In this document: in pieces, positions 1 to 27,336 of the stretch | How positions within the stretch are numbered: the first letter of the stretch is position 1 | Layout of the letters: each line of letters begins with the position of its first letter | Source of the DNA: Portibacter lacus | GTDB lineage: Bacteria > Bacteroidota > Bacteroidia > Chitinophagales > Saprospiraceae | Direction: 5' to 3' | Assembly: GCF_021533215.1 (NCBI RefSeq) | Contig: NZ_JAJNKA010000019.1 | Span: 1 to 64,000, forward strand | DNA length: 64,000 bases | Notes under the pieces: model-generated | What the model saw: the letters and a program-made list of their open reading frames with translations, nothing else | Database searches by the model: none | Told to the model about the DNA's origin: nothing | Translations under genes and position numbers: made by a program

Positions 1-123
1 CAAATGAGTGACAGCAGTCACTCATTAGTTAAGGGACCAAAACCAACGGATTTTGGATGGGTTGGTCGAACCTCCACGAAGAGCTGATCTAAGCTCTAAA
101 GGTTGCTTCTGGATATCCATCCA
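1..123. repeat. Structured element sharing 36 positions with the tRNA-like gene
   Basis: No protein gene is visible from 1 to 725. This part is rich in inverted repeats. There is a perfect 10-bp hairpin (arms 3-12 and 17-26, loop AGCA), a second hairpin (CCAAAA 37-42 with TTTTGG 51-56), and an outer 7-bp pairing of TGGATGG (54-60) with CCATCCA (117-123). The outer pairing encloses the hairpin AGAGCT-N6-AGCTCT. Positions 66-101 match 364-399 of the tRNA-like gene at the same spacing: 20 identical bases, a 6-base loop that differs, then 10 identical bases. The remaining stretch, 124-301, holds only a weak hairpin (207-215 with 226-234). The element could be a degenerate copy of the tRNA-like gene or a small structured RNA; the sequence does not decide. 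Confidence 0.5.
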
Positions 124-301
124 TTAGCAAAATAAATTAGCTTTTCATTCACTAATCACTAATCTGATTTTTGTCATTTTGCTTTCCAATGGTCAGATCG
201 CTTAGGTGAATTATTATTCTCAATGAATAATTCATGCTCGATAAAAGCTTGCCGACCCCTAGACTTCGTTGCAGCTCGACGATCTATACCTTGCCACAAA
301 A

Positions 302-335
302 AAAAGCGATACCTAAATGAATAGATATCGCTTTT
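302..335 (-). terminator. Rho-independent terminator of the tRNA-like gene
   Basis: AAAAGCGATA (302-311) pairs perfectly with TATCGCTTTT (326-335). Read on the minus strand, the stem is followed by a run of eight T. It lies 14 bases past the 3' end of the tRNA-like gene, so it would end that transcript. Confidence 0.75.
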
Positions 336-349
336 ATTTATGAATTTGC

Positions 350-488
350 TGTGAGAGAAGGATTCGAACCTCCACGAAGAGCTTAGCTTAGCTCTAAAGT
401 TTAGAAAATCTAAACTTTAAAACCAGTTTGTCGCTTGGTCTTCACCCCCGAGACAGGAGGGCATGTCTGCCAATTTCATCACCTCACA
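350..488 (-). tRNA. tRNA-like RNA, Leu-type body, GUC anticodon, oversized variable region
   Basis: On the minus strand the sequence folds as a class II tRNA. It has a 7-bp acceptor (TGTGAGG with TCTCACA), a Leu-type D arm (ATG/CAT stem, loop AAATTGGCAGA), and an anticodon stem CCCTC/GGGGG around the loop CTGTCTC, which puts GTC (Asp) at 34-36. The T arm is intact (GGAGG, TTCGAAT, CCTTC), the discriminator is G, and CCA is not encoded. The variable region is about 71 nt instead of the usual 10-24 and contains up to three hairpins (ACCA/TGGT, AAAGTTTAGA/TCTAAACTTT, AGAGCT/AGCTCT). Position 37 is T, where a purine is the rule. Leu-like body, Asp-like anticodon and G73 do not fit one isoacceptor; G73 and a long arm would suit SerRS. 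A promoter and a terminator flank it, so it is probably transcribed. Whether it is charged or decodes is unknown. Confidence 0.6.
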
Positions 489-514
489 TTGTATTGTTAT
501 CGCTTTCGATATGA

Positions 515-547
515 CAAATATACAACCAAACAAACCTTTTGTGCAAA
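515..547 (-). promoter_or_regulatory. Promoter of the tRNA-like gene
   Basis: On the minus strand, TTTG (544-547) and TATATTTG (515-522) are separated by 21 bases. They match the Bacteroidota -33/-7 consensus TTTG and TAnnTTTG. Transcription would start near 509, about 20 bases before the tRNA-like body. Confidence 0.65.
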
Positions 548-725
548 TTATTTTAATAAAAAGATAAAATATTTATAATAATATCAATAAACACCTTAAT
601 ATGATGAAAATATAATAATATGAATATGTATTTGCGCTGGATTTTTAGAGGATTTAAAATATAATTTAGAATATCTACACGTTTTGTTATTTTTATAATA
701 AATACCTTTACCTAAAATTGAAATC

Positions 726-1802
726 CTGAAAAGATTATTCATATATATAATTGTAGTTGTATTGCTTGGAATAGGTATTCTCGCGGCGTCGTTTATAAAC
801 ATTGACCTAGAAGAAAAAGATGTAGAAGGTCCAGTTGCGAAATACGATTTTAAGAAAGAACCCAAAATTAAAGGATTAACTTTTGTTGCACCTCCTCGAC
901 CGTTTAGTGAGAACCCTATGCCTTATATTCAATCAGTAAATGCAGAATGGATAGCAGTTATTCCTTATGGTTTCATACCGAAAGACGATCATAAAGTAGC
1001 GCATGGTTCGGAAAGACAATGGTGGGGTGAAAGAGAAGAAGGCGTAGTGGAAACCATTACTAAAGCTCATGAAAGTGGTCTGCGGGTGATGATCAAACCA
1101 CAAATATGGATGCATGGATCCTGGATCGGAGATTTTACGCTCGATAATGATAAACACTGGCAAGAATGGGAAGAAACCTATTCGAAATATATCCTTCAAT
1201 ATGCTAGGATTGCCCAAGAGCAAGGAGTCGATATGCTTTGCATTGGCACAGAATTCAAAAAGGCAATGCAAGATAATTCTGATTATTGGTACCATCTAAT
1301 TGATCAGATTAGAGCCGTTTATGATGGGCCGTTAACTTACTCGAGTAACTGGGACGAATATAAAGATGTGCCGATTTGGGATAAGCTAGATTATATAGGA
1401 ATTAGTGCATATTTCCCATTGACAGACGAAAAAGAACCTTCTCATGCTACCTTGAAAAAAGAATGGAAACCAGTCGTGAAAGAACTTGAGCGATTTGCCA
1501 ATAAACATAAGAAAAAAATCATCTTTACAGAATTTGGATACCTTAGTGTAGATGGCTGCGCAGGGAAAACGTGGATTTTAGAGAAAGAACGAGATAAACA
1601 CAATCAGAATCAAAAAGCTCAAGCTGACGCTTTCCATTGCCTTTTTTCTACTTTTTGGGATGAAGATTGGTGGGCTGGCGGTTTTTTCTGGAAGTGGTAT
1701 CCTGAAATGAGACCGAATAGAAAAGATTTTTACAATAAAGATTACTCTCCACAGGGTAAATTAGCAGAAAAGACCATCGCTGAATGGTATGGAAAAAGAT
1801 AG
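726..1802 (+). CDS. GH113-like glycoside hydrolase (beta-mannanase family), membrane-anchored
   Basis: The protein resembles the TIM-barrel glycosidases of family GH113, whose studied members cut beta-mannans. GH113-like features are GTEF, carrying the presumed acid/base Glu, and FTEFGY with the presumed nucleophile Glu. Trp-rich segments near the C terminus would line the sugar cleft. The first ATG-like reading at 762 (TTG) would cut into a hydrophobic helix. Reading from CTG at 726 gives MKRLFIYII followed by a full membrane or signal-anchor helix, and an in-frame stop lies at 699, so the start must be non-ATG. The gene sits 3 bases before panC, in the same frame after a TAG. The substrate is inferred from family only. 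Confidence 0.75.
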   Translation: MKRLFIYIIVVVLLGIGILAASFINIDLEEKDVEGPVAKYDFKKEPKIKGLTFVAPPRPFSENPMPYIQSVNAEWIAVIPYGFIPKDDHKVAHGSERQWWGEREEGVVETITKAHESGLRVMIKPQIWMHGSWIGDFTLDNDKHWQEWEETYSKYILQYARIAQEQGVDMLCIGTEFKKAMQDNSDYWYHLIDQIRAVYDGPLTYSSNWDEYKDVPIWDKLDYIGISAYFPLTDEKEPSHATLKKEWKPVVKELERFANKHKKKIIFTEFGYLSVDGCAGKTWILEKERDKHNQNQKAQADAFHCLFSTFWDEDWWAGGFFWKWYPEMRPNRKDFYNKDYSPQGKLAEKTIAEWYGKR

Positions 1803-27261: not shown

Positions 27262-27335
27262 GCTTCCTTAGCTCAGCTGGTTAGAGCATCTGACTGTTAA
27301 TCAGAGGGTCCAAGGTTCAAGTCCTTGAGGGAGCG
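27262..27335 (+). tRNA. tRNA-Asn (GTT)
   Basis: A standard cloverleaf: acceptor GCTTCCT/AGGGAGC, D arm GCTC/GAGC, anticodon arm TCTGA-CTGTTAA-TCAGA with GTT at 34-36, T arm CAAGG-TTCAAGT-CCTTG, discriminator G. CCA is not encoded. It serves as an internal comparison for the odd tRNA-like gene at 350-488. Confidence 0.97.
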
Positions 27336-27336
27336 C

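Follow-up and report, generated by a model that had tools for sequence, protein, structure and literature searches.

A conserved tRNA-like RNA family in Bacteroidota and phage contigs: a candidate non-decoding carrier for asparagine synthesis

The window analysed here, a stretch of 64,000 nucleotides from Portibacter lacus, contains the gene for a tRNA-like RNA (copy A) that, judging from sequence comparisons, is a member of a conserved family with representatives in numerous Bacteroidota genomes and on phage contigs of IMG/VR. We consider it probable, at roughly 0.6, that this RNA serves tRNA-dependent asparagine synthesis as a dedicated chimeric tRNA that does not decode. AspRS would read its anticodon loop and G73 and charge it with Asp, GatCAB would read its U1-A72 pair and amidate the bound Asp to Asn, and hydrolysis or an unknown enzyme would then release free asparagine for AsnRS and metabolism. 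Transcription of the RNA would be adjusted by AsnC, much as asnA is controlled by its AsnC in E. coli. The domain that replaces the variable arm, together with the loss of U33 and of a purine at position 37, would exclude the RNA from the ribosome, so that Asn joined to an Asp anticodon could not do harm there by misreading Asp codons; alternatively, this domain may hold AspRS and GatCAB together. The proposal draws on the AspRS determinants and the U1-A72 pair as described in the literature cited below, on co-occurrence with GatB, on the presence of AsnRS and GlnRS in carriers and on a divergently transcribed AsnC-type regulator, and also on the window genome's own tRNA-Asn, which begins with G1-C72 and is not of the type recognised by GatCAB.

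The gene in the window

Copy A lies on the minus strand at positions 349-488, with U1 at 488 and G73 at 349, and is matched by our covariance model with 124.8 bits. Its 7-bp acceptor stem consists of the 5' strand UGUGAGG (482-488, including U1 and G2) and the 3' strand UCUCACA (350-356, including A72), followed by G73. Between the two, likewise on the minus strand, are the D arm (463-479) with a 3-bp AUG...CAU stem and an AATTGG loop that supplies the GG, the anticodon arm CCCUC-CUGUCUC-GGGGG (445-461; GUC at 452-454) in which U33 is present but position 37 is T, and the T arm GGAGG-UUCGAAU-CCUUC (357-373). The place of the variable arm is taken by a domain at 376-443 that comprises a GAAG/CUUC stem (440-443 with 376-379), the segments GACAAAC (426-432) and GCUAAGC (386-392) and a long hairpin (396-418). 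The folding energy of the 139-nt strand is -46.3 kcal/mol (z -2.81), and 4 of 200 shuffled sequences folded equally well. A first-pass annotation, made from the letters of the sequence, had described a tRNA-like gene with an intact acceptor, a D arm, a perfect anticodon stem with GTC, T37, a T arm and G73, and all of these parts can be read in the sequence; the gene is located where it was placed, at 350-488, except that G73 falls one base beyond that range. The flanking signals named there are also present on the minus strand, namely a Bacteroidota-type promoter at 515-547 (TTTG at 544-547, a 21-base spacer and TATATTTG at 515-522) and a terminator-like hairpin at 302-335. Further downstream, a partial repeat of the 3' half of the RNA (66-104, minus strand) is 90% identical. 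The divergent neighbour of copy A (762-1802) encodes a glycoside hydrolase of the GH113 family.

The annotation tools tried, ARAGORN and Rfam, did not recognise the gene. ARAGORN made a single call in the window, an ordinary tRNA-Asn (27262-27336, plus strand; first pair G1-C72). Copy A had no match in Rfam that reached the gathering score, and a permissive scan of positions 1-800 yielded nine matches, all below gathering scores. A typical relative (L036) likewise stayed below every gathering score, the tRNA model (RF00005) giving 14.8 bits against a threshold of 29. A tmRNA was not called by ARAGORN, and the Rfam tmRNA model reached 5.8 bits against 47 in window positions 1-800, while no Y RNA was among the Rfam matches listed for the window copy and L036. 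More generally, the copies of the RNA that were tested gave neither an ARAGORN call nor an Rfam match above threshold, so that the Infernal check advised in the first-pass annotation, here combined with ARAGORN, ended without a known family. In searches of the open-access PMC literature, no report of such an RNA was among the papers listed.

Distribution of the RNA family

Besides copy A, the window genome has a second full copy (copy B; C2:222220-222397, 76% identical over the query) and four partial copies. Contigs C2 and C10 both end inside repeats of the RNA, and the two loci are therefore probably neighbours. Partial 3'-half copies together with the terminator follow both full copies in tandem at a spacing of about 318 nt (window 1-340; L007 2540-3027 and 4911-5263), and both contigs break there. 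In genome G001 (L009 960-1500), copy A is flanked upstream by tandem repeats of its 5' half, with a foreign insert in the anticodon arm, and downstream by repeated pieces of the 3' half.

All three genomes of the genus carry copies, and with one relative as query, matches at E ≤ 0.01 were obtained in 161 of 298 family genomes. The exact pattern of the anticodon arm was found in at least 118 stretches of named genomes and in 105 IMG/VR stretches; the named genomes among the matches listed include Chitinophaga, Dyadobacter, Spirosoma, Algoriphagus, Cyclobacterium, Niabella and MAGs, with the cultured carriers Dyadobacter fermentans and Chitinophaga pinensis represented. For covariance model R1, the line for calling a carrier was drawn at 80 bits or E ≤ 1e-18. 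In a sample of the class, 51 of 296 genomes pass E ≤ 1e-18, and in a sample of the phylum R1 matches above 80 bits occur also in f48, a family of another class. An R1 match at E ≤ 0.001, which 354/394 genomes of the phylum search gave, was not counted as marking a carrier; the listed matches below about 65 bits are mostly 82-87 nt long, which is the length of ordinary tRNA-Leu, and one weak match that was read individually (L347) measures 76 nt. A phage collection (50,697 records) and a plasmid collection (72,556) returned no match with one query each.

Chance resemblance was considered and is ruled out by the second copy in the genome and by the occurrence in genus and family. The search of close genomes that had been recommended at the outset was thus successful, and its result, together with the compensatory changes described below, refutes the notion of a decaying pseudogene.

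Identity elements for AspRS and GatCAB

Anticodon loops were counted on copies found by covariance model or BLAST, because the pattern search had fixed the anticodon loop. There are 166 such distinct copies, 163 with a 7-nt loop and three with incomplete or N-filled loops; the covariance model was trained on YUGUCUC loops and has the same lean at every loop position. A review of tRNA identity (PMC9976931) names G73, G34, U35, C36 and C38 as strong Asp determinants. In the RNA, U35, C36 and C38 are each present in 163/163 distinct loops, G34 in 160/163, and G73 in all 161 full-length copies of the covariance-model set. According to the same review, U1-A72 confers amidation of Asp-tRNA while G1-C72 and U20a prevent it, and the rule for the first pair is also given in PMC4206432. 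The 161 full-length copies have U1-A72 and G2-C71 without exception, whereas variation is seen at pairs 4-69 and 5-68. In the sets found by pattern, U1-A72 occurs in 118 of 120 named copies among the matches listed, in 52 of 54 phage copies and in 48 of 48 copies of the family set.

Two AspRS features from this review are absent. Bacterial tRNA-Asp has G1-C72, which is said to help AspRS to place the 3' end, and G10 is listed as well (PMC9976931); the RNA has U1-A72 and either A10-U25 or U10-A25, position 10 being mostly A. On balance, the AspRS set and the GatCAB pair agree with the invariant positions better than charging with Ser or Leu does.

GatB and enzymes of asparagine and glutamine metabolism

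In the 296-genome class sample, in which the RNA was scored at E ≤ 1e-18 and GatB was searched as a subunit of GatCAB, GatB is present in 228 genomes: in all 51 RNA-positive ones and in 177 of the other 245. Not one of the 68 GatB-negative genomes has the RNA (hypergeometric P 3.8e-7, without correction for descent). Because every carrier has GatB and 177 GatB-positive genomes are without the RNA, the RNA seems dependent on GatB and not vice versa. Among 49 chosen genomes, GatB was found in 30/30 that are RNA-positive; of those without the RNA, 0/14 within the class and 5/5 outside it have GatB. Relatives that lack GatB in families f2, f3 and f69 also lack the RNA.

AsnRS was matched in all 30 RNA-positive genomes of this set and GlnRS in 27, and GatCAB is therefore without its usual Gln- and Asn-tRNA duties in most carriers; in the three genomes in which GlnRS was not found (G456, G568 and G576) GatCAB may serve Gln. 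AsnA is encoded in two of the 30 carriers (G087 and G456). At least 25, the window genome included, contain an AsnB-type protein that exceeds the TIGR01536 cut-off and may or may not be an asparagine synthetase. Among the matches listed, the AsnB-type proteins of RNA-positive genomes have mostly 600-660 aa; six were scanned, of which four scored best as XrtA-type amidotransferases and two, including that of the window genome, as asparagine synthase. One AsnB-type gene adjoins a gene with an O-antigen ligase domain. For five of the 30 carriers (G002, G445, G479, G538 and G558), neither AsnA nor an AsnB over the cut-off was among the matches listed. The first pair of tRNA-Asn, parsed in 28 RNA-positive genomes, is U1-A72 in 23 and G1-C72 in five (the window's genus, G030 and G456); it proved useless as a discriminator, U1-A72 being common among RNA-negative genomes too. 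Genome G314 gave no match for GatB, AsnA, an over-cut-off AsnB (matches listed) or the RNA and is, on gene content, a candidate asparagine auxotroph.

AsnC-type neighbour and transcription signals

A gene for an AsnC-type regulator adjoins the RNA in 75 of the 118 named loci among the matches listed, and it is divergently oriented in all 75, with gaps of 121-270 nt (median about 154); the second most frequent of the real neighbour clusters reaches 20/118. The model-found loci give a similar picture (36/53, divergent in 36/36), including three f48 loci and thus a second class. The linkage is absent in 43 of the 118 named loci among the matches listed, in 17 of the 53 model-found loci and at the window locus, the AsnC homologue of the window genome being located elsewhere. 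AsnC is the best NCBIfam family of the neighbour protein in the members scanned, with scores (169.4 bits for L156, 156 for member 1 of cluster A5) below the cut-off of 227 bits for the AsnC equivalog NF008384, and the best PDB match is E. coli AsnC (2cg4, 127 bits). In E. coli, the genes asnC and asnA are divergently transcribed, and AsnC activates asnA unless asparagine is present, according to PMC4482635.

The palindromic AAATATTT occurs upstream in 43 of 75 AsnC-linked loci, against 5.0 expected from shuffling, and in 9 of 37 unlinked loci, against 2.1 (matches listed in both cases). It is a possible AsnC operator; the DNA there is AT-rich. A -7 box (TAnnTTTG) is found within 60 nt upstream of 44/119 named-genome copies among the matches listed versus 14/600 random stretches, in 23/48 versus 7/240 for the family set and in 7/54 versus 12/270 for phages. 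The corresponding figures for terminators are 40/120 (matches listed) versus 8/600, 4/47 versus 5/240 and 1/54 versus 4/270. An RF-1-domain (ArfB-like) gene of the peptidyl-tRNA hydrolase type lies immediately upstream of copy B in all three genomes of the genus (L007 3619-4047, L010 880-1310, L011 895-1320; Pfam basis for L007 alone). A GGQ-type hydrolase could free an RNA of its amino acid.

A wider reading, to which we give slightly less than even odds, is that much of the Bacteroidota uses an AsnC-regulated chimeric tRNA as carrier for free asparagine and that the phage copies raise the supply of the infected cell; the RNA gene would then occupy the place of the asparagine synthetase gene of E. 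coli. Several observations argue against an Asp-to-Asn carrier: U1-A72 is not the end preferred by AspRS and G10 is absent, G34 is lost in three of 163 loops, 177 GatB-positive genomes of the class sample are without an RNA match at E ≤ 1e-18, AsnA occurs in two and AsnB-type proteins in at least 25 of 30 carriers, tRNA-Asn itself has U1-A72 in 23 of 28 carriers, GlnRS was not found in three, and AsnC is unlinked at the loci counted above (43/118 among the matches listed, 17/53) and scores below its cut-off.

The RNA could, with low probability, be a ligand of AspRS and GatCAB that donates Asp or Asn to a lipid, peptide or protein, or that binds one of these enzymes as a decoy or sensor with no net production of asparagine. 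Such a role draws on the same identity features and GatB co-occurrence, and carriers with over-cut-off AsnB-type proteins might need no further Asn route. Dedicated tRNAs used outside translation do exist. What speaks against it is the neighbourhood: the adjoining gene is AsnC-type, E. coli AsnC answers to asparagine (PMC4482635), and no shared gene for an acceptor enzyme was seen near the loci, AsnC being the sole cluster in the vicinity of most of the 118 (matches listed).

Conserved fold of the variable-arm domain and phage copies

In an alignment of 62 diverse copies with a long domain, 36 pairs are supported, with 96.4% of cells paired versus 80.2 in shuffles and 402 double-change cells versus 103; none of 500 shuffles reaches either value, and slid controls for the 36-pair structure are 48-58% paired. 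For a further 46 distinct rows, whose alignment by the model is biased toward the structure, 96.8% of cells were paired, with 164 versus 39 double changes. These are compensatory changes of the kind for which the first-pass annotation had asked. The domain has three stems, the first GNGG/CCNC and the second short and bulged, with an internal loop (GAYAAAC / GCUAA) before the third. The long type has in addition a hairpin, GG-RUUGA-CC, and a stretch of UUUGU, whereas only the first stems remain in the short forms, which measure about 107-126 nt. Copy A is without the GGRUUGACCAC sub-hairpin common to most aligned relatives and has a plain long hairpin instead of the RUUGA part.

On IMG/VR stretches, two neighbouring proteins were identified as phage-type, a terminase large subunit, whose cluster occurs in 44 of 105, and a portal protein, whose cluster occurs in 28. 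The phages that bear the RNA may be crAss-like. Among 32 viral loci run through ARAGORN many contain tRNA genes, and in seven loci (L191, L195, L209, L230, L245, L255 and L261) a tRNA-Ser adjoins the RNA copy or lies within a few bases of it. Viral stretches L225 and L255 encode a tmRNA and at least 18 tRNAs alongside the tRNA-like gene. Phage copies L191-L295 have varied palindromes after GACCAC (GCGCGC, GTGCAC, TGCA-loop hairpins) that resemble kissing-loop dimer sites. Measured against mononucleotide shuffles, palindromic segments are found in 32 of 40 distinct phage segments versus 11.2 expected, in slight excess in the family set (12/31 versus 6.8) and without excess in named genomes (16/65 versus 17.5).

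It is improbable that the RNA has adopted the fold of a tRNA only in the interest of stability and processing, serving as a regulatory or structural RNA whose domain binds a protein or ligand and for which charging is irrelevant. The structural conservation of the domain would suit such an RNA, as would the phage palindromes, which look as if they made dimer contacts, and the copies a few bases from tRNA-Ser; left unexplained would be the invariant AspRS and GatCAB identity bases and the co-occurrence with GatB.

Relation to other tRNAs and decoding

The initial interpretation as a conserved, structured RNA that does not decode stands, whereas charging with Ser or Leu, which had been offered alongside it, is less supported; the linkage to AsnC, the co-occurrence with GatB and the phage copies lay outside the view of that annotation. 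A crude alignment score places the RNA body nearest to Ser(GCU) of its own genome (27.3), ahead of Tyr (26.5) and Leu (24.5), and for this reason an origin from tRNA-Leu, a first impression from the D loop, is no longer favoured. The GU before the T stem resembles the tRNA-Leu of the genome, unlike its tRNA-Ser. The two bases at this position have a role in Leu/Ser distinction. We regard it as very unlikely that SerRS (or LeuRS) charges the RNA and that it works, as a class II tRNA, either by misreading Asp codons or outside translation. G73, the long variable arm and the proximity to Ser(GCU) are compatible with SerRS, for which G73 and the orientation of the arm count. Yet SerRS has no need of GUC, C38 or U1-A72, all invariant or nearly so, and the base of the arm looks Leu-like. 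Against LeuRS stands G73 in 161/161 copies, Leu identity in E. coli depending on A73 (PMC9976931).

Position 33 is T in 140, G in 10, A in 10 and C in 3 of the 163 loops, and position 37 is T in 146, G in 8, C in 7 and A in 2. With U33 and purine 37 so poorly kept, decoding appears unlikely, and the early statement holds that this RNA, class II in architecture with an Asp-type anticodon, is not a normal decoding tRNA. An extra decoding tRNA-Asp, as the GUC of most copies might suggest, is hardly credible with U33 lost in 23 loops, a purine at 37 in just 10, an RNA arm of 60-90 nt and an ordinary tRNA-Asp(GTC) already encoded in the window genome.

Comparison with known systems

Use of a tRNA mimic outside decoding is not new in itself. 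The bacterial Y RNA YrlA mimics tRNA, and tmRNA shares this trait; the RNA described here has no Rfam match above threshold and is not called as tmRNA by ARAGORN. Staphylococcal tRNA-Gly is a dedicated non-translational tRNA for the cell wall and likewise combines a tRNA-like body with little or no use in decoding, but amino acid, enzymes and lineage differ, and the folded variable-arm domain is found in the RNA. Allo-tRNAs and selC* tRNAs (PMC7609411) share the unusual class II-like build and were also missed by standard annotation. According to that paper, in whose text the string "Bacteroid-" is absent, their acceptor branch has 12 bp (8/4 or 9/3), as opposed to a 7-bp acceptor and a 5-bp T stem in the RNA. 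In E. coli asnC-asnA the same type of regulator is divergently arranged, with the protein AsnA as partner in place of an RNA gene.

The closest parallel is tRNA-dependent Asn synthesis, which is known on decoding tRNA-Asn (PMC4206432) and proceeds via ND-AspRS and GatCAB, organised in a transamidosome, in Bdellovibrio, Deinococcus and Thermus (PMC4206432, PMC9976931). Shared with our RNA are U1-A72 and G73, the occurrence of GatCAB beside AsnRS and GlnRS, and the proposed conversion of Asp to Asn on an RNA. In that route the ordinary tRNA-Asn that also decodes acts as carrier, and a non-discriminating AspRS is required; the RNA has a GUC-N-C38 loop, no conserved decoding features and a large extra domain. 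Because this loop carries Asp identity, ordinary AspRS could suffice. The enzymes and the tRNA fold are thus already known, while a separate Asn carrier of such make was not among the open-access papers listed by the searches. If the proposed asparagine carrier is real, it would be a tRNA serving amino acid synthesis instead of decoding, in a widespread family that the annotation tools used here overlooked; it would explain the retention of GatCAB in Bacteroidota with GlnRS and AsnRS, asparagine synthesis on an RNA with ordinary AspRS, and the gene copies on phage contigs.
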